From a virus: DNA of 64,000 nt. Where the stretch lies: IMG/VR virus record IMGVR_UViG_3300044634_003731, positions 1-64,000 of that record. One strand, 5' to 3'. Both the position numbers and the translations under genes were made by a program. This document shows, piece after piece, positions 1-53,538 of this stretch (position 1 is its first letter; each line of letters opens with the position of its first letter). The notes under the pieces were generated by a model that was not told the DNA's origin, did not search any database, and saw only the letters and a program-made list of their open reading frames with translations.

Positions 1-34
1 ATAAAATAAATGTTTTAAATGGAGATAAAAAATA

Positions 35-1042
35 ATGGATTTTCTTAAGGATATTGTAAAAGAGATTGGTGATGACTTTACTAAGTTAGCATCTGATATT
101 GAAGAAACGGAAACTTATGTTGATACAGGTTCATACGTTTTTAATGCACTGGTTTCAGGTAGTATATTTGGCGGTGTATCTGGGAATAAGATTACTGCTA
201 TTGCTGGAGAGTCTTCTACTGGAAAGACTTTTTTCTCTCTCGCTGTGGTTAAGAACTTTCTTGATACTAATCCCGATGGTTACTGTCTCTACTTTGACAC
301 TGAGGCTGCTATCACTAAATCACTTATAGAATCTCGTGGAATTGATACTACTCGTTTGGTTGTTGTTAACGTTGTTACTATTGAAGAGTTTCGTACAAAG
401 GCACTCAAAGCAGTAGATATGTATCTGAAAACACCACTAGAAGATCGTAAACCTTGCATGTTTGTGCTAGACTCTTTAGGTATGCTCTCTACAAGCAAGG
501 AAATTACTGATGCACTAAATGAAAAAGAAGTTCGAGATATGACTAAATCTCAACTTATTAAAGGTGCATTCCGAATGCTCACACTCAAACTAGGTCAAGC
601 AAATGTCCCGCTCATTGTCACGAATCATACATACGATGTCATCGGAGCTTACGTACCAACTAAAGAAATGGGAGGAGGTTCTGGACTCAAATACGCAGCA
701 AGTACGATCATTTATCTCAGCAAAAAGAAAGAAAAGGATGGAACGGAAGTGGTCGGAAATATTATCAAGGCTAAGACTGCTAAATCGCGTTTGAGTAAGG
801 AGAACAAAGATGTTGAGATTCGTTTGTTTTATGATGAGCGTGGTCTTGATCGATATTATGGTCTTCTTGAACTCGGTGAGATTGGGGGTCTTTGGAAGAA
901 TGTAGCAGGACGCTATGAAATGGATGGGAAGAAGATTTATGCTAAACAGATTTTAAAAGATCCCGAAGTATATTTCACTGAAGAAGTAATGCAACAATTG
1001 GATCAAATCGCACGTAAGGAATTTAGTTATGGAGAAGGTTGA
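35..1042 (+). CDS. uvsX: UvsX RecA-like recombinase
   Basis: A 335-residue T4 UvsX/RecA-family recombinase that forms filaments on single-stranded DNA and drives strand exchange for recombination-dependent replication. The Walker A motif GESSTGKT is at about residues 58-65, and a Walker B-like hydrophobic strand (CMFVLDSLG) is near 141-149. The end of the protein is acidic and aromatic. A GGAG site lies about 10 nt before the ATG. The 3' end overlaps the helicase gene by 14 nt, giving a uvsX-41-mazG operon typical of T4-like cyanophages. The family is clear; strand-exchange activity is inferred from family. Confidence 0.95.
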   Translation: MDFLKDIVKEIGDDFTKLASDIEETETYVDTGSYVFNALVSGSIFGGVSGNKITAIAGESSTGKTFFSLAVVKNFLDTNPDGYCLYFDTEAAITKSLIESRGIDTTRLVVVNVVTIEEFRTKALKAVDMYLKTPLEDRKPCMFVLDSLGMLSTSKEITDALNEKEVRDMTKSQLIKGAFRMLTLKLGQANVPLIVTNHTYDVIGAYVPTKEMGGGSGLKYAASTIIYLSKKKEKDGTEVVGNIIKAKTAKSRLSKENKDVEIRLFYDERGLDRYYGLLELGEIGGLWKNVAGRYEMDGKKIYAKQILKDPEVYFTEEVMQQLDQIARKEFSYGEG

Positions 1043-2402
1043 GTTTCTAATTCTTAGAAACCTATTACACGATGAAGAATATTTGAGAAAAGTATTACCA
1101 TTCATTAAAAATGAATATTTTGATGATTCTGAACAAAAGATAGTATTTGAAGAAATAACAAAATTTGTGTTGGAATATAATAATGTTCCAACTAAAGAAA
1201 TACTTTGTATCGAGATTGAAAAGAGAATAGATATAAATGAAGACCAGTTTAAAAAATTAATTCATTTAGTATCAAGTCTTGAAAGTATTGTAGTAGAAAA
1301 AAACTGGTTATTAGATACCACCGAAAAATGGTGTCGTGATCGTGCCATTTATTTGGCACTTATGGAATCTATTCATATTGCTGATGGGGATGATAAAAAA
1401 TCTCCAGATGCTATTCCATCAATACTCCAAGATGCTCTTGCAGTAAGTTTTGATAATCATGTTGGGCATGATTATCTTGAAGATTACGAAAAACGTTATG
1501 AATCTTATCATAAAAAGGAAGAAAAAATTGAATTTGATCTTGAATATTTTAACAAAATTACAAAAGGTGGGATCCCTAACAAAACTCTTAATATCGCTCT
1601 TGCTGGTACGGGTGTCGGCAAGTCTCTATTCATGTGCCATGTTGCTAGCTCCGTCTTGCTCCAAGGGAGGAACGTTCTGTACATTACGTTGGAAATGGCA
1701 GAAGAACGCATTGCTGAAAGAATTGACGCGAATCTCTTGAATGTCCCTATTCAAGATATCGTCAATCTTCCAAAACAAATGTTCGAAAGTAAGGTTGCAA
1801 ATCTTGCAAAGAAGACTCAAGGAACTCTAATCATTAAAGAATATCCAACTGCTTCAGCACATGCCGGGCATTTTAAATCTCTTCTTAATGAACTTTCTCT
1901 TAAAAAGTCTTTTAAACCGGATATCATCTTTATCGACTATTTGAACATTTGTGCTTCCAGTAGATATAAAGGTAATAGTAGCATTAATTCTTATACTTTT
2001 GTAAAAGCAATTGCAGAAGAACTTCGTGGACTTGCAGTGGAGTTTAATGTTCCTATTGTAAGTGCTACTCAGACAACTCGTTCTGGTTATGGTTCTTCTG
2101 ATGTGGAATTGACTGATACCTCAGAATCATTTGGTCTTCCTGCCACTGCTGACCTGATGTTTGCTCTGATTTCTACAGAAGAACTTGAAGGACTTGGACA
2201 GATTCTTGTTAAACAACTTAAGAATCGTTATAATGATCCTACCATTCATAAGCGGTTTGTGGTTGGTATTGATCGTGCTAAAATGCGTCTTTATGACTGC
2301 GAACAATCTGCTCAACAAGATATCCTTGACAATGGGAAAGATGAAGAGTATGATTATGAAGAAAAGAAACCTAAGAAAACTTTTGAGGGATTTAAATTCT
2401 GA
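1029..2402 (+). CDS. 41: gp41 replicative DNA helicase (DnaB family)
   Basis: A 457-residue DnaB-type hexameric helicase equivalent to T4 gp41, which unwinds the fork and partners with the gp61 primase encoded at 10856. An N-terminal helical domain (about 1-150) is followed by a RecA-like ATPase core with P-loop GTGVGKS near residue 194, a Walker B segment (PDIIFIDYLN) near 297-306, and a terminal acidic/lysine-rich tail. The start lies inside the end of uvsX and the stop overlaps the mazG ATG by one base, so the three genes are translationally coupled. Confidence 0.95.
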   Translation: MEKVEFLILRNLLHDEEYLRKVLPFIKNEYFDDSEQKIVFEEITKFVLEYNNVPTKEILCIEIEKRIDINEDQFKKLIHLVSSLESIVVEKNWLLDTTEKWCRDRAIYLALMESIHIADGDDKKSPDAIPSILQDALAVSFDNHVGHDYLEDYEKRYESYHKKEEKIEFDLEYFNKITKGGIPNKTLNIALAGTGVGKSLFMCHVASSVLLQGRNVLYITLEMAEERIAERIDANLLNVPIQDIVNLPKQMFESKVANLAKKTQGTLIIKEYPTASAHAGHFKSLLNELSLKKSFKPDIIFIDYLNICASSRYKGNSSINSYTFVKAIAEELRGLAVEFNVPIVSATQTTRSGYGSSDVELTDTSESFGLPATADLMFALISTEELEGLGQILVKQLKNRYNDPTIHKRFVVGIDRAKMRLYDCEQSAQQDILDNGKDEEYDYEEKKPKKTFEGFKF

Positions 2403-2821
2403 TGACTGATAAAAAAGTAATTGATTCTGACAAATACATTGATTTTGTTCGTCAAACTACAAGTCCAGCAAGTAGTGACTTTGCTCAACTTCTTTCACGA
2501 ATGACTGAACTTGAAGCAAAACATGATGCTGATGTTCCTCGTCTTTTGACCGCTGCTCTTGGTATGACTGCAGAAGCTGGTGAATTTACTGAGGTTGTAA
2601 AAAAAATCGTTCTTCAAGGTAAGCCTTATATTGAAGAAAATGTCTTTCATATGAAGCGTGAGCTTGGTGATATTTGTTGGTATATTGCTCAAGCTTGTAT
2701 GGCACTTGATACCAACTTCCGTGAGATTATGGAAATGAACTATGAGAAATTGAGTGCTCGCTACCCAGAAGGAACATTTGATGTATATAGAAGTGAAAAT
2801 CGTGTAGAGGGTGACCTATGA
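2402..2821 (+). CDS. mazG: MazG-like nucleoside triphosphate pyrophosphohydrolase
   Basis: A 139-residue all-helical MazG-family pyrophosphatase, a common cyanophage auxiliary gene. The metal-binding helices show AEAGEFTEVVKK (about 55-66) and ELGDICWYIAQA (about 84-95), matching the ExxE...ExxD pattern. Proposed roles are cleaning non-canonical dNTPs or altering (p)ppGpp levels; biochemical work on cyanophage MazG favours nucleotide turnover. The ATG overlaps the gp41 stop by one base and the stop overlaps the next ATG (ATGA), so it belongs to the replication operon. Confidence 0.88.
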   Translation: MTDKKVIDSDKYIDFVRQTTSPASSDFAQLLSRMTELEAKHDADVPRLLTAALGMTAEAGEFTEVVKKIVLQGKPYIEENVFHMKRELGDICWYIAQACMALDTNFREIMEMNYEKLSARYPEGTFDVYRSENRVEGDL

Positions 2822-3003
2822 CTAAAGAAAAACAAGTAACACTTAAACTTGATACTCGTACCGCTGCAGCAGTCCGACAAGTTTTATTTGATGCCCAAAA
2901 AGGATATACTTATGATGAAGTCAGTGTTCCTCCTCGTGTAACTGATATTCGTGAGGTAATTGGGCAACTTGATGATAATATTGGCGCTGTTCTTGGTGCT
3001 TGA
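2818..3003 (+). CDS. Small conserved protein, unknown function
   Basis: A 61-residue protein starting in a 4-base ATGA overlap with mazG and ending just before a terminator, so it is the last gene of the uvsX operon. It starts with charged residues and predicted strand/helix (KQVTLKLDTRTAAAVRQVLF) and has no cysteines or membrane segment. I do not recognise a family; the coupled position and good codon use make it likely to be real. Confidence 0.7.
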   Translation: MTKEKQVTLKLDTRTAAAVRQVLFDAQKGYTYDEVSVPPRVTDIREVIGQLDDNIGAVLGA

Positions 3004-3007
3004 ATTT

Positions 3008-3029
3008 GACTCCTTCGGGAGTTTTTTTG
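3008..3029 (+). terminator. UUCG-loop intrinsic terminator after uvsX operon
   Basis: The stem ACTCC/GGAGT (plus a G-T pair) is closed by a TTCG tetraloop and followed by seven T. It ends the uvsX-41-mazG transcript. A late-promoter motif follows directly. Confidence 0.85.
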
Positions 3030-3032
3030 TTT

Positions 3033-3040
3033 TATAAATA
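3033..3040 (+). promoter_or_regulatory. T4-type late promoter motif TATAAATA
   Basis: A perfect TATAAATA 24 nt before the ATG at 3064. In T4-like phages this motif is read by the phage late sigma factor gp55; placement before a probable virion gene fits. Confidence 0.6.
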
Positions 3041-3063
3041 AATAAAAAAGTATTTGTAAAAAA

Positions 3064-3777
3064 ATGTCTAGAATTACTGGAAAACAAGCTCTTGGACTTT
3101 TTGAGGCTTATCAAGCAGTATATGCTCCCCAAGAATTATCCGAAGAACAGATTTGGGAAGAAGTAGAAGAGTGGGTAAATTCACTTCTAGAAGAAGGATA
3201 TGATCTGAGTGATTATACCTGGGAAGAAATGTACGAAGCATATATCGAAGAGGCAAGAGCAGAAGGTGTAAAACCTTATAAAGCAGGACCAACTCAAGCA
3301 GATGTAAGAGCAAATGCTGCTGCTGCTCGTCAAAAGCACGTTGCAGGCGCTTCTGGACAAAAAGGTTATGGACCTGAAGATAAGTTTAAGAGTGATTGGA
3401 AGCTAAGAGCAACTCCATCTTCGACAAGTAAGAGAAAAGATGGAACTATTGAAACTGTTTCTCAGAGAATGGATAGAGAAAAGCCTTATGCTACCAGACC
3501 ATTTTCTCCATTGTTTACAAAACAAGGAAGTCGCACTGCTTCTGCTGTAACAAGAACGATTGAGGGTCCAGGAGAACCACAAGCAGTCACAATGCCTAGA
3601 AAAGGTAGAGGTGAAAAACCAAAACTTTCTAGAGAAATTATCCGTAAGGAGCACGTAGATGTTTATGATGTAGTTCTCTCTCATCTTCTTGGTGAAGGAT
3701 ATGCTAATTCGGTTGAATCTGCAGAAGCAATTATGGTAAATATGAGTGAGCAGTGGATTGAAAGTATTCTTGGTTGA
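3064..3777 (+). CDS. Putative virion-associated protein
   Basis: A 237-residue protein of no recognised catalytic family. The N-terminal third is acidic and helical (about 1-80). The middle is basic and low complexity, and the last 40 residues form a helical motif (LLGEGYANSVESAEAIMVNMSEQ begins with LLGEGY near 203). Similar LLDEGY segments occur in other proteins of this module, including the 803-residue protein at 6167, which suggests a shared binding element. It sits alone between two terminators with a late motif upstream. A structural or packaged role is inferred. Confidence 0.75.
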   Translation: MSRITGKQALGLFEAYQAVYAPQELSEEQIWEEVEEWVNSLLEEGYDLSDYTWEEMYEAYIEEARAEGVKPYKAGPTQADVRANAAAARQKHVAGASGQKGYGPEDKFKSDWKLRATPSSTSKRKDGTIETVSQRMDREKPYATRPFSPLFTKQGSRTASAVTRTIEGPGEPQAVTMPRKGRGEKPKLSREIIRKEHVDVYDVVLSHLLGEGYANSVESAEAIMVNMSEQWIESILG

Positions 3778-17930: not shown

Positions 17931-18002
17931 GGGACATTAACTCAGCGGTAGAGTATTCGGCTTTTAACCGATTAGTCCTCGGTTCGAATCCGAGATGTCC
18001 CA
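17931..18002 (+). tRNA. tRNA-Lys(TTT)
   Basis: Acceptor GGGACAT/ATGTCCC, anticodon loop CTTTTAA, T loop TTCGAAT, discriminator A. Confidence 0.93.
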
Positions 18003-18005
18003 TAT

Positions 18006-18087
18006 GGGAGGATTTCCGAGTGGTTAAAGGAATCTGACTGTAAATCAGACGGCTCTGCCTTCACAGGTTCAAATCCTGTTCCTCCCA
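18006..18087 (+). tRNA. tRNA-Tyr(GTA)
   Basis: Acceptor GGGAGGA/TCCTCCC, anticodon loop CTGTAAA, long variable arm as expected for bacterial Tyr. Confidence 0.93.
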
Positions 18088-18091
18088 CCTT

Positions 18092-18165
18092 GACGGTGTA
18101 GCTTAGTGGTTTAAAGCGCCTGCCTGTCACGCAGGAGATCGGGGGTTCAAATCCCCTCATCGTCG
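18092..18165 (+). tRNA. tRNA-Asp(GTC)
   Basis: Acceptor GACGGTG/CATCGTC, anticodon loop CTGTCAC, G discriminator as usual for Asp. Confidence 0.93.
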
Positions 18166-18187
18166 TTGGAGTTTATCTCCATAATAT

Positions 18188-18259
18188 GGTCCTATCGTCT
18201 AGTGGTGAGGACATCACTCTTTCACAGTGAAGACACGGGTTCAAATCCCGTTAGGACTA
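18188..18259 (+). tRNA. tRNA-Glu(TTC)
   Basis: Acceptor GGTCCTA/TAGGACT (G-T first pair), anticodon loop CTTTCAC. Confidence 0.9.
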
Positions 18260-18262
18260 CCA

Positions 18263-18336
18263 CGGAATGTAGCGCAGTTTGGTAGCGCATCTGTTTTGGG
18301 AACAGAGGGTCGCAGGTTCGAATCCTGTCATTCCGA
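18263..18336 (+). tRNA. tRNA-Pro(TGG), copy 1
   Basis: Acceptor CGGAATG/CATTCCG, anticodon loop TTTGGGA. A second, different Pro(TGG) gene is at 22064. Confidence 0.92.
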
Positions 18337-18339
18337 CCA

Positions 18340-18412
18340 GGAAACATAGCTTAGTTGGTAAAGCATTCGACTGATAATCGAAAGAGCACTGGTTCGAGTC
18401 CAGTTGTTTCCA
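18340..18412 (+). tRNA. tRNA-Ile(GAT)
   Basis: Acceptor GGAAACA/TGTTTCC, anticodon loop CTGATAA, discriminator A. Confidence 0.92.
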
Positions 18413-18435
18413 TTGTTGCTTTGAAGCAACATTAA

Positions 18436-18525
18436 GGAAGTGTGGCAGAGAGGTTTAATGCAGTGGATTGCTAATCCGCCGATGTTCTTTAAGTGCATCC
18501 GTTGGTTCGAATCCAACCACTTCCG
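18436..18525 (+). tRNA. tRNA-Ser(GCT)
   Basis: Acceptor GGAAGTG/CACTTCC, anticodon loop TTGCTAA, long variable arm, G discriminator. Confidence 0.92.
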
Positions 18526-18612
18526 TAGGACTCCAGCAAGGTGCTTGCTAGGATATAAAAGACTGACGCCTCCCTCTTCAGAAAGAGTACCCAGCAGGTC
18601 AGCGTCCACTTT
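18526..18612 (+). other. Structured spacer between tRNA-Ser and tRNA-Met
   Basis: An 87-nt spacer, longer than the others. It holds CCAGCAAG/CTTGCTAGG and CTCTT/AAGAG hairpins and competing pairings GACGC/GCGTC and CTGAC/GTCAG. No tRNA anticodon/T-loop pattern and no frame of note. Confidence 0.35.
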
Positions 18613-18684
18613 GGCAGTGTAGTTCAGTGGTAGAACAAGAGATTCATACCCTCTATGTCGGTAGTTCAATTCTACCCACTGCCT
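18613..18684 (+). tRNA. tRNA-Met(CAT), copy 1
   Basis: Acceptor GGCAGTG/CACTGCC, anticodon loop TTCATAC. T discriminator is unusual. It may be elongator Met or an Ile tRNA needing lysidine. Confidence 0.85.
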
Positions 18685-18685
18685 T

Positions 18686-18757
18686 GTGTCGTTAGCCTAG
18701 TGGTTAAGGCATCTGTTTGTGGAACAGAGGAGATGAGTTCAATTCTCATACGACACC
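18686..18757 (+). tRNA. tRNA-His(GTG)
   Basis: Acceptor GTGTCGT/ACGACAC, anticodon loop TTGTGGA, C discriminator typical of His. The extra 5' G is not encoded (T at that place). Confidence 0.9.
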
Positions 18758-18759
18758 CC

Positions 18760-18830
18760 GCCCGATAAGCATTGTGGTGATGCAGCAGTTTAGTAAACTG
18801 CAGAGAACAGTTCAATTCTGTTATTGGGCT
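18760..18830 (+). tRNA. tRNA-Thr(AGT) by anticodon
   Basis: Acceptor GCCCGAT/ATTGGGC, anticodon stem GCAGT/ACTGC with loop TTAGTAA. An A34 Thr anticodon is rare in bacteria and phages; the rest of the fold is normal with a short variable loop. Confidence 0.75.
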
Positions 18831-18833
18831 CTC

Positions 18834-18858
18834 AACTATCCGGAATTTCCAGATAGTT
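18834..18858 (+). repeat. Spacer hairpin between tRNAs
   Basis: AACTATC/GATAGTT arms with an inner GGA/TCC pair set; no T-run, so not a plain terminator. Confidence 0.6.
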
Positions 18859-18863
18859 CAAAT

Positions 18864-18939
18864 GTTCAGGTGGCAGAGTGGTCGAATGCAGAAGTCTGCA
18901 AAACTTCTATCACCATGGGTTCGAATCCCACCCTGAACT
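18864..18939 (+). tRNA. tRNA-Cys(GCA)
   Basis: Acceptor GTTCAGG/CCTGAAC, anticodon loop CTGCAAA, T discriminator usual for Cys. Confidence 0.9.
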
Positions 18940-18942
18940 CTT

Positions 18943-18968
18943 TAATCCCGTCGAATTCCACGGGATTA
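18943..18968 (+). repeat. Spacer hairpin between tRNAs
   Basis: Nine-base arms TAATCCCGT/ACGGGATTA around an eight-base loop; no T-run. Confidence 0.65.
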
Positions 18969-18973
18969 CATAA

Positions 18974-19045
18974 TCCAGAATCGACTAACTGGCAGGTCAG
19001 CACCCTTTGAAGGTGTACGTCTAGGTTCGAATCCTAGTTCTGGAA
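18974..19045 (+). tRNA. tRNA-Gln(TTG)
   Basis: Acceptor TCCAGAA/TTCTGGA, anticodon loop CTTTGAA, T loop TTCGAAT. Confidence 0.9.
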
Positions 19046-19235
19046 TTGCTCCAATAGGGGCAACAATCTGTCCAACACTGGGGTTCGACTCCCCACATCT
19101 CCATTCTTGGGGATGAACTGGTATTCGACTGGGCAGAGGGTTTCGAGAATAAATCTCAACAACATCGTATCTTTCCGCAGAACTGCTGTTGCCGTTTGAG
19201 CAATAGCACTTTGAGCGAACTGGGGAGTAATCCCC
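19046..19235 (+). ncRNA. ssrA: Circularly permuted tmRNA (ssrA)
   Basis: The 3' acceptor piece comes first: a TTGCTCC/GGGGCAA hairpin, TCTGTCC, T arm TGGGG-TTCGACT-CCCCA, then CATCTCC and discriminator A at 19103. A 5-nt spacer (TTCTT) follows, then the 5' acceptor strand GGGGATG at 19109, which pairs with CATCTCC over seven bases. GGGCAGA (19131) pairs with TCTGTCC (19067), rebuilding helix P2. The tag frame 19158-19199 reads NNIVSFRRTAVAV then stop, close to the marine cyanobacterial tag NKIVSFSRQTAPVAA. The stop lies in a TGCTGTTGC/GCAATAGCA hairpin. Permuted two-piece tmRNA is known in marine cyanobacteria. Confidence 0.88.
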
Positions 19236-19241
19236 TTTCTT

Positions 19242-19315
19242 GTCCTTTTAGCTCAGTGGAACAGAGCAATAGGCTACGAACCTATGTGTCGGGAGTTCGA
19301 ATCTCTCAAAGGACG
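19242..19315 (+). tRNA. tRNA-Arg(ACG)
   Basis: Acceptor GTCCTTT/AAAGGAC, anticodon loop CTACGAA, G discriminator. Confidence 0.92.
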
Positions 19316-19316
19316 C

Positions 19317-19336
19317 TGCCAGTCTTCAAACTGGCA
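19317..19336 (+). repeat. Spacer hairpin after tRNA-Arg
   Basis: TGCCAGT/ACTGGCA arms and a six-base loop, directly before a promoter. Confidence 0.6.
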
Positions 19337-19344
19337 CAAGGCAC

Positions 19345-19373
19345 TTGACTTTCTTGGTCAGATGCCTTATGAT
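19345..19373 (+). promoter_or_regulatory. Sigma70-like promoter inside tRNA cluster
   Basis: TTGACT, 17-nt spacer, TATGAT, upstream of tRNA-Ile(TAT). Confidence 0.65.
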
Positions 19374-19391
19374 GATTGAGTCAAGGGTTAA

Positions 19392-19463
19392 GGGACTGTC
19401 GCCTATTGGTTAAGGCCCACTGCTTATAACGGTGTGAACAGAGTTCAATTCTCTGCAGTCCTA
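19392..19463 (+). tRNA. tRNA-Ile(TAT)
   Basis: Acceptor GGGACTG/CAGTCCT, anticodon loop CTTATAA. It reads AUA directly, unlike the usual bacterial lysidine-modified CAT tRNA; AUA is common in this AT-rich genome. Confidence 0.85.
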
Positions 19464-19467
19464 CCTT

Positions 19468-19540
19468 GCTCCTTTAGCAATCTGGTGAATGCAGCGAACT
19501 CATAATTCGCCTGAGGCGTGTTCAATTCACGCAAGGAGCA
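19468..19540 (+). tRNA. tRNA-Met(CAT), copy 2
   Basis: Acceptor GCTCCTT/AAGGAGC, anticodon stem GCGAA/TTCGC with loop CTCATAA, A discriminator. Confidence 0.88.
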
Positions 19541-19543
19541 CTT

Positions 19544-19560
19544 GGTAATCAAAGATTACC
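19544..19560 (+). repeat. Spacer hairpin between tRNAs
   Basis: GGTAATC-AAA-GATTACC, a perfect seven-base stem. Confidence 0.65.
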
Positions 19561-19564
19561 TTAT

Positions 19565-19648
19565 GGGAGTATGGTGGAATCGGTAGACACATCAGACTTA
19601 AAATCTGCTGGGAGCAATCCCGTGGGAGTTCAAGTCTCCCTACTCCTA
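19565..19648 (+). tRNA. tRNA-Leu(TAA)
   Basis: Acceptor GGGAGTA/TACTCCT, anticodon loop CTTAAAA, long variable arm. Confidence 0.92.
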
Positions 19649-19651
19649 CTT

Positions 19652-19725
19652 GCCGAAGTAATCCAACTGGTAGAGGTGCCTGACTCAAAATCAGGATGTT
19701 GTGGGTTCGAATCCCACTTTCGGTA
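19652..19725 (+). tRNA. tRNA-Leu(CAA) by anticodon, short variable loop
   Basis: Acceptor GCCGAAG/TTTCGGT, stem CCTGA/TCAGG with loop CTCAAAA. The variable region is only five bases, whereas bacterial Leu tRNAs carry a long arm; the D stem is also weak. Charging identity is uncertain. Confidence 0.75.
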
Positions 19726-19740
19726 TTGGTTATAACCAAT
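19725..19740 (+). repeat. Spacer palindrome between tRNAs
   Basis: A perfect 16-base palindrome ATTGGTTATAACCAAT. Confidence 0.6.
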
Positions 19741-19743
19741 TTT

Positions 19744-19815
19744 ATTGGGATGGTGTAATTGGTAGCACGAGAGTCTCCAAAACTTTTAGTTAGGGTTCAA
19801 GTCCCTATCCCAATG
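19744..19815 (+). tRNA. tRNA-Trp(CCA)
   Basis: Acceptor ATTGGGA/TCCCAAT, anticodon loop CTCCAAA, G discriminator as expected for Trp. Confidence 0.9.
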
Positions 19816-19816
19816 C

Positions 19817-19845
19817 TTGACAAATTCTTCTGAGTTTGTTACTAT
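19817..19845 (+). promoter_or_regulatory. Sigma70-like promoter inside tRNA cluster
   Basis: TTGACA, 17-nt spacer, TACTAT, immediately after tRNA-Trp. Confidence 0.68.
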
Positions 19846-19909
19846 ATAAAAGGATAGAGGTTAAGTCACTGTTACATCCTTATGAGGTGTATCACACTTA
19901 ATCCATCAT

Positions 19910-19981
19910 CGTGGGGAAGTGTAACGGTTGCACAGAAGTCTCATAAGCTTCAGGTAGGTGGTTCAACTCCACCCCCCGCCT
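19910..19981 (+). tRNA. tRNA-Met(CAT), copy 3, 1-72 mismatch
   Basis: Acceptor CGTGGGG/CCCCGCC with a C-C mismatch at the terminal pair, anticodon loop CTCATAA, T arm GGTGG/CCACC. A broken first pair is an initiator trait, but the GGG/CCC anticodon-stem signature is absent. T discriminator followed by an encoded CCA. Confidence 0.78.
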
Positions 19982-19987
19982 CCAATT

Positions 19988-20070
19988 GCTTCAGTGGTGG
20001 AACGGTAGACACAGCGGACTTAGAATCCGCCGCCTTAAAAAGCGTGGAAGTTCAAATCTTCTCTGGAGCA
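19988..20070 (+). tRNA. tRNA-Leu(TAG)
   Basis: Acceptor GCTTCAG/CTGGAGC, anticodon loop CTTAGAA, long variable arm. Confidence 0.92.
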
Positions 20071-20071
20071 C

Positions 20072-20100
20072 TTGACAATCAAACTTAAATAGTTTATGAT
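20072..20100 (+). promoter_or_regulatory. Sigma70-like promoter inside tRNA cluster
   Basis: TTGACA, 17-nt spacer, TATGAT, upstream of tRNA-Gly. Confidence 0.72.
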
Positions 20101-20110
20101 TGTCTCAACT

Positions 20111-20182
20111 GCGGAATTAGTTCAGTGGTAGAACGCCATCCTTCCAAGTTGGATGTCACCGGTTCGAATCCGGTATTCCGCT
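20111..20182 (+). tRNA. tRNA-Gly(TCC)
   Basis: Acceptor GCGGAAT/ATTCCGC, loop CTTCCAA, anticodon stem CCATC/GTTGG with one T-T mismatch. Confidence 0.9.
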
Positions 20183-20184
20183 CT

Positions 20185-20200
20185 GAACCTTCGGGTTCTT
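20185..20200 (+). terminator. UUCG hairpin after tRNA-Gly
   Basis: GAACC-TTCG-GGTTC followed by a short TTTA; a weak terminator or processing hairpin. Confidence 0.5.
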
Positions 20201-20203
20201 TAT

Positions 20204-20275
20204 TCCACAATAGCTCAGCGGTAGAGTCGGTGACTGTTAATCACTTGGTCCCTGGTTCGAATCCAGGTTGTGGAG
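20204..20275 (+). tRNA. tRNA-Asn(GTT)
   Basis: Acceptor TCCACAA/TTGTGGA, anticodon loop CTGTTAA, G discriminator. Confidence 0.92.
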
Positions 20276-20312
20276 TTGGAAGGTCTGGAAATGTCTGGAT
20301 CTTCCTCTAAAT

Positions 20313-20328
20313 CCTAAGTTTTCTTAGG
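20313..20328 (+). repeat. Spacer hairpin
   Basis: CCTAAG-TTTT-CTTAGG, 40 nt after tRNA-Asn. Confidence 0.55.
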
Positions 20329-20329
20329 T

Positions 20330-20400
20330 CGGGGACTTGATCACCCCCGCTCGTTGCGGAGAGTGTCTTCCGCGAGTGGTGGGCACTCACTACTCATCAA
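20330..20400 (+). ncRNA. Unassigned structured RNA segment
   Basis: A GC-rich 70-nt stretch between tRNA-Asn and tRNA-Val. TTGAT (337-341) pairs with ATCAA (396-400); inside, CGCTCG pairs with CGAGTG around GCGGA/TCCGC, competing with GAGTGGTG/CACTACTC (one G-T). No tRNA anticodon or T-loop pattern and no frame. It may be a small RNA or an unusual tRNA spacer. Confidence 0.4.
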
Positions 20401-20472
20401 GGGCGATTAACTCAGCGGTAGAGTGGCTGCCTTACAAGCAGTAAGTCATTGGTTCGAATCCGATATTGCCCA
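20401..20472 (+). tRNA. tRNA-Val(TAC)
   Basis: Acceptor GGGCGAT/ATTGCCC, anticodon loop CTTACAA. Confidence 0.93.
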
Positions 20473-20516
20473 TAATAAATAAATTATATTGATGAGAATG
20501 AATAGGGTTTAAAATA

Positions 20517-20768
20517 ATGTTGTCAATAAGATGCAAAGATTGTAATAAAGAATTAATAGGGCACCCATCAAAAACAGTAACGTGTGGTTGTCCCAATATG
20601 GCAACAATTCGTGGAGACAAGATTTCGGCACTTGACTTATCTCGAATTGTTATGCTAAACTCTTTAAAAGAAAATCAAAATAAAAGTGTGCTTACTTCTC
20701 AAGATATTGCTTGGCAAGAAGCACGTCGTCAACGTAAAGTAAGACGACTTGATTTTGAAGTCCGCTAA
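20517..20768 (+). CDS. Small zinc-ribbon-like protein
   Basis: An 83-residue protein embedded among tRNA genes. RCKDCNKELIG (about 5-15) and TCGCPNM (about 22-28) give a CxxC...CxC cluster suited to zinc binding. The C-terminal third is a basic helix (ARRQRKVRRLDFEVR). Such proteins recur in cyanophages without known function; nucleic-acid binding is a guess. No strong ribosome site. Confidence 0.72.
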   Translation: MLSIRCKDCNKELIGHPSKTVTCGCPNMATIRGDKISALDLSRIVMLNSLKENQNKSVLTSQDIAWQEARRQRKVRRLDFEVR

Positions 20769-20779
20769 GGACTTAATTT

Positions 20780-20863
20780 GGAAAGGTGTCCGAGTGGTTT
20801 AAGGAACTTGTCTTGAAAACAAGCGTGTTAATAGCACCGTGGGTTCGAATCCCACCCTTTCCG
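20780..20863 (+). tRNA. tRNA-Ser(TGA)
   Basis: Acceptor GGAAAGG/CCTTTCC, anticodon loop CTTGAAA, long variable arm, G discriminator. Confidence 0.92.
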
Positions 20864-20987
20864 TTACATAGAATACAAATTTAATACTTTCTTTCGTTTT
20901 CTGTATAGTAGTGTTACAAAACACTGACATTTAGATGACGTTTAAAATTCTATGATTAGTATATAGTAGTACTATGAATAGAAAAAA

Positions 20988-21137
20988 ATGGATCAGCACA
21001 CCTATAATAATTGGGTGAAGATCAAGGAGACTTTTGAGACTTCTGGTAATACTGATAATATGTTCTATAAGAGAGCAGTTGAAATCGTAAAAACCCGAAG
21101 AGATCCTCTTGCAAAATTTCTTGGCGATGAAAAATGA
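20988..21137 (+). CDS. Small protein, unknown
   Basis: A 49-residue frame (MDQHTYNNWVKIKETFETSG...) with helical, charged composition. Its stop overlaps the next ATG (ATGA), which supports a two-gene operon. Family not recognised. Confidence 0.6.
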   Translation: MDQHTYNNWVKIKETFETSGNTDNMFYKRAVEIVKTRRDPLAKFLGDEK

Positions 21138-21337
21138 TATGTGAACAAAAAGAATTTATTACACGTTCTGAAGTTCAGGAGATGATCGATGCAGCAATAC
21201 GACGACACAACCGTAATGCTTCTATCATTAGTATGTGCGTCGGTTGGGTGGTTCTTGCTTTATTTGCTGAGGGACTTTTGAGATTAGTTGGAGTTATTCC
21301 TCCACTATTTTCTTGGATGAAAATAACATTAAATTAA
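21134..21337 (+). CDS. Small single-pass membrane protein
   Basis: A 67-residue protein with a charged N-terminal helix (about 5-28) and a membrane segment (about 31-52, SMCVGWVVLALFAEGLLRLV). Coupled to the preceding gene by ATGA. Function unknown. Confidence 0.68.
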   Translation: MICEQKEFITRSEVQEMIDAAIRRHNRNASIISMCVGWVVLALFAEGLLRLVGVIPPLFSWMKITLN

Positions 21338-21341
21338 AAAA

Positions 21342-21431
21342 ATGACTAAAACAATATATAACGCTATAATTACTTTTAGTATTATTGGTTTTTTTATTTT
21401 TTGGGGACTTACTCACTCTTATTATAAATAA
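21342..21431 (+). CDS. Tiny membrane peptide
   Basis: A 29-residue frame (MTKTIYNAIITFSIIGFFIFWG...) that is nearly all one membrane helix. It starts 4 nt after the previous gene; a late promoter overlaps its end. Tiny membrane peptides are common in cyanophages. Confidence 0.5.
   Translation: MTKTIYNAIITFSIIGFFIFWGLTHSYYK
21423..21430 (+). promoter_or_regulatory. Late promoter TATAAATA
   Basis: Perfect TATAAATA, 27 nt before the ATG at 21457. Confidence 0.55.
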
Positions 21432-21456
21432 ACAAAAATAAATTAATTGAAATATT

Positions 21457-21951
21457 ATGGCAACAAAAACTATAACTTTATCTGTGACTTCTCCCACTGA
21501 AGGATATGCTTGGAATGTAAATTTTTCTGTTGATGATGCAACATTAATAAGAAATATAGTTAATTTTTCAATTAATTGTCCTACTAATACTGAAGGTAAT
21601 TTCTCTGTTCCAAGTACTGCAAATATAAGTCAAGTAGTTAATGGATATTCTAGTCATTCTGATACTAATGGAGGAACTCCTTCTTCTCTAGCAGATTCTG
21701 GAGCAAATAGTTATGTAACTTGGAGATCTATTTTAAGGAATGGACAATTTCCCACTTCGGGAAAAAGTTTAGATATATGGAGTTATCAATTTTATAATGA
21801 TATTATGTATAGTTCTAAAACTTGGGCACAAATAGGTAATGGATCTACTTATTCGTTAAACCCAGGAAAATGGAGTCTAATTTATGATTACTCCTCAAGG
21901 AATGTTTTTGCATTATCTAAAGGTGGAACATTAACAGTTTCTGTTGTATGA
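21457..21951 (+). CDS. Unrecognised beta-rich protein
   Basis: A 164-residue Ser/Thr/Asn-rich protein with alternating strands and almost no Lys/Arg clusters. TITLSVTSPTEGYAWNVNFSVDD at the start looks like an Ig-like or tail-fibre beta sandwich. No signal peptide. A late promoter upstream suggests a virion or adhesin role, but no family was recognised. Confidence 0.7.
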   Translation: MATKTITLSVTSPTEGYAWNVNFSVDDATLIRNIVNFSINCPTNTEGNFSVPSTANISQVVNGYSSHSDTNGGTPSSLADSGANSYVTWRSILRNGQFPTSGKSLDIWSYQFYNDIMYSSKTWAQIGNGSTYSLNPGKWSLIYDYSSRNVFALSKGGTLTVSVV

Positions 21952-22073
21952 TAAAAATTGTAGAATATCTTTTGACCCATCAATGGTCATTGTTTGTTAT
22001 TGGTTGTCTCTTGACACTTGGACCTGCAATGGGTATAATGATTGTGCATCAAAATAAAAACATCGGGCATTAG
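21948..22073 (+). CDS. Small membrane protein overlapping tRNA-Pro
   Basis: A 41-residue frame starting in an ATGA overlap with the previous gene. Residues about 13-34 form a membrane helix. Its stop codon lies within the first bases of tRNA-Pro at 22064, a 10-nt overlap between protein and tRNA genes. Confidence 0.6.
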   Translation: MIKIVEYLLTHQWSLFVIGCLLTLGPAMGIMIVHQNKNIGH

Positions 22074-22137
22074 CGCAGTTTGGTAGCGCGTTCCGTTTGG
22101 GGCGGAAAGGTCAAAGGTTCAAATCCTTTATGCCCGA
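22064..22137 (+). tRNA. tRNA-Pro(TGG), copy 2
   Basis: Acceptor CGGGCAT/ATGCCCG, anticodon loop TTTGGGG, stem TTCCG/CGGAA. It differs from copy 1 through most of its length. Confidence 0.92.
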
Positions 22138-49852: not shown

Positions 49853-50017
49853 GTAAACAAATGTTAAGAAATTCACACAATTCTTAACATTGTTAAACAC
49901 CCATTAACCGAGACCTATGGGGTGTATAAATTACGTCTCTCATATCTTCTCTAGGGGTGAGAAGAAATATTGAACCATGTTCGTCCCCACGAACTCTTAC
50001 TTAACCCTTTTTCAAAT

Positions 50018-51789
50018 ATGACTGCTTCAATCGCTTCACGCCGTTCTGGCGAAAACCTCTGGGAACAATTTTGCCAGTGGGTAACTTCAACCGATAACCG
50101 TCTTTATGTTGGTTGGTTCGGTGTTCTGATGATTCCAACGCTGCTTGCTGCTGCTACTTGTTTCATCATCGCATTTATCGGTGCTCCTCCTGTAGACATT
50201 AACTAATCGGTGTCCCTTACTCGTAAGAGTATTGACGAAACTGGGTGAATTGCTGGAAACCGAAAGGTAATCAGCAGCCAAGCCTCAAGTACACTTGAGG
50301 AAGGTTCAGAGACTACCTGAGAGGTTCAGTCCCCTTAATGACAGGTTTAAGTGCCCAGCCCCTTCTATGAAGGGTGAAGATATAGTCCACACTTCACAGA
50401 GTAATCTGAAATAACCTAAGTCTTATGATATGGTTGTTTATATGAAGTTGCGACGGGATTCGTGAACCAGTTGCTGGTTCTCTAATGTACGGAAACAATA
50501 TCATCTCTGGTGCTGTTGTTCCAAGTTCAAATGCTATCGGACTTCACTTCTATCCCATCTGGGAAGCCGCTTCTCTTGATGAATGGTTGTACAATGGTGG
50601 TCCTTTCCAACTGGTTGTGTTCCACTTCCTGATTGGTATCTACTGCTATATGGGTCGTGAGTGGGAACTTTCCTACCGTCTTGGTATGCGTCCTTGGATT
50701 ATGGTTGCTTACAGCGCACCTGTTGCTGCTGCATCTGCTGTATTCTTGGTCTATCCTTTCGGTCAAGGTTCTTTCTCTGATGCGATGCCTTTGGGTATCT
50801 CTGGTACGTTCAACTATATGCTTGTGTTCCAGGCAGAGCACAACATCCTGATGCACCCCTTCCATATGCTTGGAGTTGCTGGTGTCTTTGGTGGTTCTCT
50901 GTTCAGTGCTATGCACGGTTCGTTGGTGACTTCTTCACTGGTTCGTGAAACCACTGAGAATGAGTCTCAGAACTATGGTTACAAGTTTGGTCAAGAAGAA
51001 GAGACATATAACATCGTTGCTGCACACGGTTATTTTGGTCGCCTTATTTTCCAATATGCTTCCTTCAATAACTCACGTTCACTCCACTTCTTTTTAGCGG
51101 CGTGGCCCGTTGTAGGCATCTGGTTCACTGCTCTTGGTGTTTCTACGATGGCTTTTAACCTCAATCGTCGGGGTCCCGTCCTAGCAATTTGACGGTAAAC
51201 TTTGGGTGAATTGCTGGAAGCCCTCCATAAATGGGTAATCAGCAGCCAAGTCCAAGACGCTTCTTGGAAAGGTTCAGAGACTAGGTGGTTTCTCAAGCGT
51301 GAGATGTAATACACCAATAGCGCCCAACATCCTAAATGGATGAAGATATAGTCCTCGCCTTAAAGATGGTAAATTTAAGGAAACAGAGTAACGGTTTCAA
51401 CTTCAACCAGTCCATTATGAGTTCTGAAGGAAAGGTAATTAATACCTGGGCTGATGTACTCAACCGAGCAGGTCTCGGAATGGAAGTGATGCACGAGCGT
51501 AGATTTGGGTGTTGCGCTCTTTAAATCGGATGAATTGCTGGAAACCCCAAGAGGGCAATCAGCATCCAAGTCCAGAGTACACTCTGGAAAGGTTCAGAGA
51601 CTACCTGAGGAATAGAGTTTCCTTAATAACAGGTTTAAGCGTCCGACACCAGAAATGGTGATGATATAGTCCAATCCTGGTAGTAATACCAGACAACCAA
51701 AGGAATAAAAGAATGCCCATAATTTTCCTTTGGACCTTGCATCTGTTGAAGCAACTCCTGTTGCCTTGACTGCACCGACCATCGGGTGA
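50018..51789 (+). CDS. psbA: Photosystem II D1 protein, split by three introns
   Basis: Exons are 50018-50199, 50451-51161, 51389-51500 and 51712-51789. Spliced they total 1083 nt, exactly 360 codons plus stop, the normal D1 length, and junctions restore VDI-DGIREP, FNLN-GFNF and [13 protein letters not shown]1 binds the PSII pheophytin, plastoquinone and the manganese cluster. Position 130 is Glu ([11 protein letters not shown]), the high-light form. Ligands such as the His of FHMLGVAG and the C-terminal HxE...HNFPLDLA are kept. It sustains photosynthetic electron flow during infection. Confidence 0.95.
50200..50450 (+). ncRNA. Group I intron 1 of psbA
   Basis: A 251-nt intron with 5' exon ending in T and last base G. 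Core segments: GTGAATTGCTGGAAAC (about 50245), GGTTCAGAGACTA (about 50303) and GAAGATATAGTCC (about 50376), matching P3-P4 and P7 of group I. No internal frame. Splicing restores ATC-GAC-GGG. Confidence 0.9.
51162..51388 (+). ncRNA. Group I intron 2 of psbA
   Basis: A 227-nt intron after a T and ending in G. It shares the core GGGTGAATTGCTGGAA (51204), GGTTCAGAGACTA (51271) and GAAGATATAGTCC (51342). Splicing joins CT to TAACGG (Leu-Asn-Gly). Confidence 0.9.
51501..51711 (+). ncRNA. Group I intron 3 of psbA
   Basis: A 211-nt intron between CGT and AATGCC. Core: GATGAATTGCTGGAAACC (about 51529), GGTTCAGAGACTA (51591) and GATGATATAGTCC (51660). Its size and place resemble the single known intron of cyanophage S-PM2 psbA (about 212 nt). 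Confidence 0.9.
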
Positions 51790-51796: not shown

Positions 51797-51825
51797 AAGG
51801 GGAACTCTTTGGAGTTCCTTTTTTT
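51797..51825 (+). terminator. psbA terminator
   Basis: GGAACTC-TTTG-GAGTTCC stem and seven T. Confidence 0.85.
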
Positions 51826-51832
51826 ATAAATA
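51825..51832 (+). promoter_or_regulatory. Late promoter TATAAATA
   Basis: Perfect TATAAATA at the end of the terminator T-run, 25 nt before the endonuclease ATG. Confidence 0.6.
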
Positions 51833-51856
51833 ATTAAGCACGAAAGAAAACACGAA

Positions 51857-52285
51857 ATGACTAAACTATACTCCGACTTGTATAGAACCTGTATGACTTG
51901 CGGTGTTGAAAAGAACATTCTAGAGTTTTATATGCGTGATAAGAAAACTGGTAGGAGGCACTCTGCTTGTAAAGAATGTGATAAAACAAGAGTAAAAGCA
52001 CGGCATCAAGCAAATCCAGAACGCACGAGAAATAATGACTTGAAGAGAAACTATGGTATAACCCTTCAAGAACATCAGGAAATGTATAAAAACCAGAATG
52101 GAGTTTGTGCTATTTGTAAAGGTGAAGGTGATGGTAAATGGAAGAAATTATGCGTAGACCACGACCATAATACAGGTAAAGTTAGGCAATTACTTTGTAG
52201 AAATTGTAATATGGTTCTGGGTCAAGTTGGAGACAATCCAAATCTTTTAGAAGAAATGATTAAATACCTACAAAAGCACCAATAA
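51857..52285 (+). CDS. Endonuclease VII-type HNH homing endonuclease
   Basis: A 142-residue nuclease. The N-terminal zinc pair CMTCG/CKECD (about 14-41) precedes the Endonuclease_7 core CAICKGEG (about 86-93) and LCVDHDHNTGKVRQLLCRNC (about 101-120). Family and position between psbA and psbD match F-CphI of phage S-PM2, a free-standing endonuclease that cuts intronless psbA and promotes intron spread. One enzyme next to three introns raises the question which site it serves. Confidence 0.88.
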   Translation: MTKLYSDLYRTCMTCGVEKNILEFYMRDKKTGRRHSACKECDKTRVKARHQANPERTRNNDLKRNYGITLQEHQEMYKNQNGVCAICKGEGDGKWKKLCVDHDHNTGKVRQLLCRNCNMVLGQVGDNPNLLEEMIKYLQKHQ

Positions 52286-52476: not shown

Positions 52477-53538
52477 ATGACTTCTTCAACACTTTCACAA
52501 CCAATTAACCAGCGAGGATGGTTTGATGTCTTGGATGACTGGCTTAAACGAGATCGCTTTGTATTTGTGGGTTGGTCTGGATTACTACTTTTTCCCACTG
52601 CTTATCTTGCCCTTGGTGGCTGGCTTACTGGCACAACGTTTGTTACAAGTTGGTACACCCACGGGTTGGCGTCTAGTTACCTTGAAGGCGCTAATTTCCT
52701 TACGGCTGCTGTGTCAACGCCTGCAGATTCTATGGGTCATTCTCTTCTTCTACTTTGGGGTCCTGAGTCTCAAGGGGATATCATCAGGTGGTTCCAACTT
52801 GGGGGACTCTGGACTTTTGTGGCGCTCCACGGATCTTTCGCTCTGATTGGATTTATGCTTCGACAGTTTGAGATTGCACGACTGGTCGGTATTCGCCCTT
52901 ACAACGCAATCGCATTCTCTGGTCCTATTGCAGTATTTGTTTCTGTATTCTTGATGTATCCACTGGGACAATCCAGTTGGTTCTTTGCACCTTCATTTGG
53001 TGTTGCTGCAATCTTCAGGTTCCTTCTATTCCTTCAGGGTTTCCACAACTGGACTCTCAACCCCTTCCATATGATGGGTGTCGCAGGTATTCTTGGGGGA
53101 GCACTGCTCTGTGCGATTCACGGGGCAACAGTTGAAAACACTCTATTTGAAGACGGTGACCAAGCAAACACTTTCAAGGCATTTGAACCAACACAAGAGG
53201 AAGAGACCTACTCTATGGTCACTGCTAATAGATTCTGGTCTCAGATTTTTGGTATTGCTTTTAGTAACAAGCGTTGGCTTCATTTCTTTATGTTGTTTGT
53301 GCCTGTTATGGGTCTCTGGACCTCCAGTATCGGTATTATTGGTCTTGCCCTTAATCTTCGTGCTTACGATTTTGTTTCTCAGGAGATTCGTGCGGCAGAG
53401 GATCCCGAATTTGAGACTTTCTATACGAAGAATATTCTTCTTAATGAAGGACTTCGAGCGTGGATGGCACCTGTAGATCAACCTCACGAGAACTTTGTGT
53501 TCCCAGAAGAGGTTCTCCCTCGCGGAAATGCCCTTTAA
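52477..53538 (+). CDS. psbD: Photosystem II D2 protein
   Basis: A 353-residue D2, uninterrupted and normal length. [17 protein letters not shown] (about 89-105), [20 protein letters not shown] (about 193-212) with the P680/iron His ligands, and the C-terminal [16 protein letters not shown] are typical. An AGGAGG site precedes the ATG. D2 pairs with D1 in the reaction centre; carrying both is typical of broad-host-range T4-like cyanophages. Confidence 0.97.

Follow-up and report, generated by a model that had tools for sequence, protein, structure and literature searches.

In the present study, the free-standing endonuclease gene behind the psbA gene of a cyanophage was found to be tied to one of the three group I introns that interrupt psbA. 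The endonuclease (HNH-A) and intron 3, located at nucleotide (nt) 1005 of the spliced gene, co-occur across independent lineages, whereas HNH-A and intron 2 do not. The explanation that we favour, and that we regard as highly probable when taken as a whole, is that the endonuclease serves intron 3 only, by collaborative homing, and mobilises neither intron 1 nor intron 2. The evidence consists of the anatomy of the locus, the orthology of HNH-A with F-CphI, the site-specific association and the absence of a target common to the three insertion sites, each of which was observed directly.

The psbA locus and its endonuclease

The source is a T4-like cyanophage carrying psbA and psbD, represented by a virus record that is a 65-kb fragment, of which the window, the whole stretch of DNA analysed here, covers 64,000 nucleotides. 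On the forward strand of the window, psbA occupies positions 50018-51789 and contains three group I introns, which were located using Rfam RF00028 and P1 pairing, while the exons were delimited by the exon/intron placement that restores the D1 protein. Exon 1 (50018..50199; nt 1-182 after splicing) is followed by intron 1 (251 nt; 50200..50450) at nt 182, exon 2 (50451..51161) by intron 2 (227 nt; 51162..51388) at nt 893, and exon 3 (51389..51500), the 112 nt between sites 893 and 1005, by intron 3 (211 nt; 51501..51711) at nt 1005, after which exon 4 (51712..51789) includes the stop codon. Three separate matches to RF00028 scored 77, 84 and 84 bits (gathering score 50), the intron-core pattern occurred three times in the window versus 0.00 expected by chance, and splicing out all three introns, with the 5' sites after U and the intron ends at G, restored a D1 protein of 360 aa. 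The P1 guides of introns 1, 2 and 3 pair with their own exons over 5, 4 and 6 bp, respectively; the RF00028 core, the U before the 5' site, the 3' G and the P1 pairing that mark group I introns are present in all three, and the restored D1 frame suggests that they are self-splicing. No long open reading frame (ORF) was found inside intron 1, 2 or 3. Together with the RF00028 matches and the D1 frame, this result confirms the original prediction that three ORF-less psbA introns lie beside the endonuclease gene. Recent copying of introns within the psbA gene of the window was rejected, because the best match of each intron was at its own site in other phages. In addition, Rfam searches of the window revealed a PhotoRC-II RNA motif immediately 5' of psbA (49885-49978) and 25 tRNA genes in a dense cluster (17931-22137).

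Behind psbA, a probable intrinsic terminator of that gene (GGAACTC..GAGTTCC and a T run; 51801..51825) and a T4-type late promoter (TATAAATA; 51825..51832) precede the endonuclease gene (51857..52285), and psbD (52477..53538) is the downstream neighbour, as in phage S-PM2; all lie on the forward strand, and the terminator and promoter, recognised by reading the sequence, are kept in relatives. The gene encodes a free-standing Endonuclease VII-type (DHHRN) homing endonuclease of 142 aa, orthologous to F-CphI, in which the Endonuclease_7 domain (PF02945, E 2e-26) spans residues 62-140, placing the catalytic motif at the C-terminus. The protein is 81% identical to F-CphI of S-PM2 over its full length without gaps, and all five tested catalytic residues (C84, D101, H102, R110 and N118), which are required in F-CphI as determined by mutation (PMC6083498), are kept. 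F-CphI cleaves the intronless psbA of S-BM4, and the intron blocks self-cleavage (PMC6083498); collaborative homing is the term applied to F-CphI and the S-PM2 intron (PMC6083498; PMC5931967). According to PMC6083498, citing Zeng et al. 2009, F-CphI occupies the same slot between psbA and psbD as the gene in the window. S-PM2 further resembles the window in its ORF-less intron at nt 1005, where it interrupts the F-CphI target, and in the late promoter upstream of the endonuclease gene. Nevertheless, S-PM2 and S-RSM88 each have a single intron (at nt 1005), whereas psbA of the window also contains introns at nt 182 and 893, whose own enzymes are absent nearby. The expectation that the endonuclease would match F-CphI in family and place was thus borne out by the identity, the catalytic residues and the slot between psbA and psbD, and, judged from its sequence, the window endonuclease is a new member of the known system of F-CphI and its intron.

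It could be argued that the protein is a resolvase or housekeeping enzyme whose neighbourhood to psbA is unrelated to the introns, since its catalytic domain is the same as that of T4 endonuclease VII. This appears extremely improbable, however, considering the C-terminal position of the motif as in F-CphI, the 81% identity to that protein, which has been demonstrated biochemically to be a homing endonuclease (PMC6083498), and the strong association with one intron site described below. An operator mimic of the I-TevI kind (PMC2988022) upstream of the endonuclease gene was also considered. The nt-1005 target was the best match among the three sites to this upstream region, but 16% of psbA windows matched too, and the candidate was rejected; the leader of the gene (51833-51856) contains GCACGAAA repeats resembling the psbA exon end GCACGAGCG, for which the operator-mimic reading is likewise not supported.

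Association of endonucleases with intron sites

Viral contigs, many of them short, were gathered by the endonuclease, by the intron-core pattern, and by the intronless and the occupied nt-1005 junctions. The survey of intron positions, covering 199 distinct psbA regions, gave about fifteen called positions. Introns at several sites carry genes of their own (LAGLIDADG at 182 and 551, HNH at 279 and 648, and GIY-YIG at 233), and all of the observed introns at 893 and 1005 lacked an ORF and measured 201-227 nt. The contig L373 (IMGVR_UViG_3300017963_000395, 1-3549) has five mapped psbA group I introns, at nt 182, 320, 551, 648 and 753; a sixth, at nt 1005 near the contig end, is represented by its 5' part. 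The introns at nt 551 contain LAGLIDADG-type versus treble-clef/HNH-like genes, the split being L020, L022 and L069 versus L007 and L068, and these differing gene types suggest an exchange of endonucleases inside the introns.

One possibility raised in the original prediction was that a single enzyme recognises a sequence shared by all three insertion sites of the window, and a comparison of the flanks was proposed to reveal it. This comparison yielded nothing beyond chance: the identities among the three sites were 13, 7 and 12 of 40, which is ordinary for psbA, and no motif common to the three sites was observed, as the flanks were no more alike than random psbA positions, shifted alignments included. 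The idea of a shared sequence is therefore not supported, with the flanks at psbA background and the enzyme tracking 1005 and not 893.

The association between endonucleases and introns was determined in 212 distinct psbA regions, in which a second Endonuclease VII-type protein of 174 aa, HNH-B, encoded in the same slot behind psbA, is about 42% identical to HNH-A. First, HNH-A was associated with the 1005 intron (38/59 versus 2/120 regions; odds ratio (OR) 107, P 2.6e-21). Second, HNH-B was associated with the 893 intron (17/20 versus 1/142; OR 799, P 4.7e-19). Third, no association of HNH-A with the 893 intron (OR 0.38, P 0.25) or of HNH-B with the 1005 intron (P 1.0) was detected, and the two endonucleases were never found together in one region. 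Because fetching contigs by the intron pattern could bias these counts, they were repeated on loci fetched by endonuclease proteins alone, where the 893 intron was present in 1 of 38 scorable HNH-A loci versus 26 of 27 scorable HNH-B loci, and the 1005 intron in 43 of 45 HNH-A loci versus 4 of 15 HNH-B loci. Because shared descent could also bias the counts, an independent-pairs test was performed on a tree of psbA nt 1-860, a quick FastTree tree with approximate branch support. The pairs were about 9:0 for 893 with HNH-B (median P 0.004) and about 10.7:1.0 for 1005 with HNH-A (median P 0.006), and no positive cross-association was observed; the minimum numbers of state changes on the tree were 12 and 23, respectively.

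The pairing of HNH-A with the 1005 intron is strong and is not obligatory, because 21 of the 59 nt-1005 introns occur without HNH-A and are accompanied by HNH-B, another Endonuclease VII-type gene, other nuclease families or nothing recognised. Mere closeness to nt 1005 was rejected as the cause of the association, because HNH-B, residing in the same slot, tracks 893 even though 1005 is nearer. The three introns do lie in one gene within reach of a single free-standing endonuclease gene, and their cores are related in sequence, as would be expected if HNH-A read a sequence common to the three sites and mobilised all introns; with flank identities that are ordinary even in shifted alignments and with no positive association of HNH-A with 893, we consider this very improbable. 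The idea of collaborative homing is supported for intron 3 only, and introns 1 and 2 go with other systems, 893 with HNH-B and 182 mostly with LAGLIDADG genes inside the introns.

Probable target immunity, co-conversion and fate of introns 1 and 2

The HNH-A loci that lack the 1005 intron mostly appear to confirm the rule of self-immunity. In L006, encoding an HNH-A 98% identical to that of the window, the target is split by an intron at 1011, and in L028 by an intron at 1014. The target in L035 is intronless and diverged at 14 of 40 nt, a divergence observed in only 3.7% of intronless sites, and in L452, also without the 1005 intron, the nuclease is reduced to a fragment of 43 residues. Among the HNH-B loci that could be scored, L414 alone lacks the 893 intron. 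Its 893 site differs at 10 of 40 nt, and the insertion would fall at a TTG leucine codon, of a type that was absent from all occupied sites; as an instance of immunity it is weak, because it is a single case and differences of 7-9 nt are usual among intronless 893 sites. As a separate observation, in L211 and L275 an Endonuclease VII-type gene about 50% identical to that of the window was found 3' of a psbA that has no introns at all and whose 1005 junction is ordinary.

Among the 37 loci with both HNH-A and the 1005 intron, distances between the introns correlated with those of the 3' exon of 75 nt (Mantel r 0.54, P 0.001), to a small degree with those of the final 100 nt of the 5' exon (r 0.12), and not with those of psbA more than 100 nt upstream. 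This 3'-biased correlation fits co-conversion towards the endonuclease gene. HNH-A alleles and 1005 intron alleles correlated only slightly (Mantel r about 0.06, P about 0.05), which indicates that the gene and the intron also move apart and that their alleles are reshuffled. Moreover, phages with the 1005 intron and without an Endonuclease VII-type gene carry, in the slot after psbA, a GIY-YIG-like gene (L091 and L337) or an HNH-like gene (L351 and L368), suggesting that turnover is common there. Another nuclease-like gene occupies the slot in L386, which has the 1005 intron and no Endonuclease VII-type gene.

Intron 2 of the window is 94-96% identical to the 893 introns of phages carrying HNH-B. 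No remnant of HNH-B was found in the window, where only the HNH-A gene matched; as the record is a 65-kb fragment, an HNH-B gene may lie elsewhere in this phage. Since intron 2 is present without HNH-B, it was most likely orphaned, its partner being displaced as the pair of HNH-A and intron 3 homed in. The 893 intron was observed in only two HNH-A genomes, the window and L026, both with the 893 and 1005 introns; L026 carries a different 893 intron subtype, and the combination of an 893 intron with HNH-A in the slot therefore probably arose at least twice. L327 and L399 present the mirror image, with both introns and HNH-B. A search with HNH-B retrieved 36 close relatives. No relatives at 60% identity or more were found among 50,697 phage records, and a search of the open-licence literature revealed no paper describing HNH-B or the 893 pair; the HNH-A/1005 pair is known, and the HNH-B/893 pair appears to be new. 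Herein, we consider it likely that two site-specific collaborative homing systems, HNH-A/1005 and HNH-B/893, share one psbA slot, that each invasion evicts the rival endonuclease and leaves the rival intron, and that intron 2 of the window is such an orphan.

Alternatively, HNH-A might cut only at 1005 while co-conversion regularly carries along the 893 intron, in which case two introns would be served. The 893 site is only 112 nt upstream of 1005, and 893, 1005 and HNH-A occur together in the window and L026; however, the 893 intron is present in only one of the 38 scorable HNH-A loci fetched by endonuclease, and co-conversion has left little trace in the 5' exon and none more than 100 nt upstream, making regular hitch-hiking unlikely. 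Hitch-hiking of intron 2 as a rare event is also compatible with the explanation preferred here, that HNH-A serves intron 3 only.

Most nt-182 introns of relatives are about 715 nt long with a LAGLIDADG gene inside, which intron 1 of the window lacks. Intron 1 matches these introns up to the ORF and then again in its 3' tail (50414..50439), where 25 of 26 nt agree with L007 at the 3' end of its LAGLIDADG ORF and its intron tail, and its core groups with LAGLIDADG-bearing cores in a core tree with low branch supports. On account of the match before the ORF and in the tail and of this position among ORF-bearing cores, intron 1 most likely lost an internal LAGLIDADG gene, and this is the least certain step of the history. 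If the 251-nt form were instead ancestral and the gene had entered the relatives later, the tail common to intron 1 and L007 could be intron structure overlapped by the ORF, and the low supports in the nt-182 tree would leave room for such a history. We regard this as rather unlikely, since two ORF-less cores (the window and L373) lie among ORF-bearing ones, and a loss is more parsimonious than repeated insertion at the same position. With HNH-A serving intron 3 only, introns 1 and 2 look like relics.

Proposed course of events and significance

Herein, we propose the following course of events, in which we infer the cutting by the endonuclease, the order of steps and the displacement of HNH-B. 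Late in infection, a co-infecting phage with an intronless psbA would have this gene cut by the endonuclease, at nt 1005 or close to it, and repair from the window genome would copy the endonuclease gene along with intron 3 and the 3' exon, while the carrier itself would be protected by the splitting of the target by intron 3. In the history of the window, homing at 1005 from the 3' side most likely brought intron 3 and HNH-A and overwrote HNH-B, leaving intron 2 behind, which is the simplest interpretation. The orphaned intron 2 would then move only by hitch-hiking, at 112 nt from site 1005.

Similar arrangements have been found in other cyanophages. The psbA of S-SRM01 (MW015081; PMC8557907) also has three introns, but at nt 279, 753 and 1005, so that two of the three sites differ, and a downstream gene of the F-CphI type (84% identity); unlike in the window, one of its introns retains an HNH gene, which is the only psbA intron described in the paper (PMC8557907). 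S-CBWM1 (MG450654) has two annotated psbA group I introns, one with an internal endonuclease gene; it differs from the window in its intron sites and in the annotated stretch, which is without an F-CphI-type gene. Turnover of homing endonuclease genes at loci of collaborative homing, in which the nuclease genes are replaced and the intron stays, has been put forward as a hypothesis (PMC10448857). In the present case, by comparison with that hypothesis, two related nuclease lines and their introns are separable by site in one slot, and turnover therefore becomes visible by comparison.

Thus, comparison alone suffices to distinguish two pairs in psbA, each bound to its own insertion site. The arrangement in the window reveals a second, apparently undescribed pair and points to the displacement of one pair by the other, and a direct prediction follows for HNH-B. 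Those phages in which the intron was retained while its nuclease was replaced provide a natural experiment in which the turnover of enzymes, the immunity of targets and the orphaning of introns can be followed.
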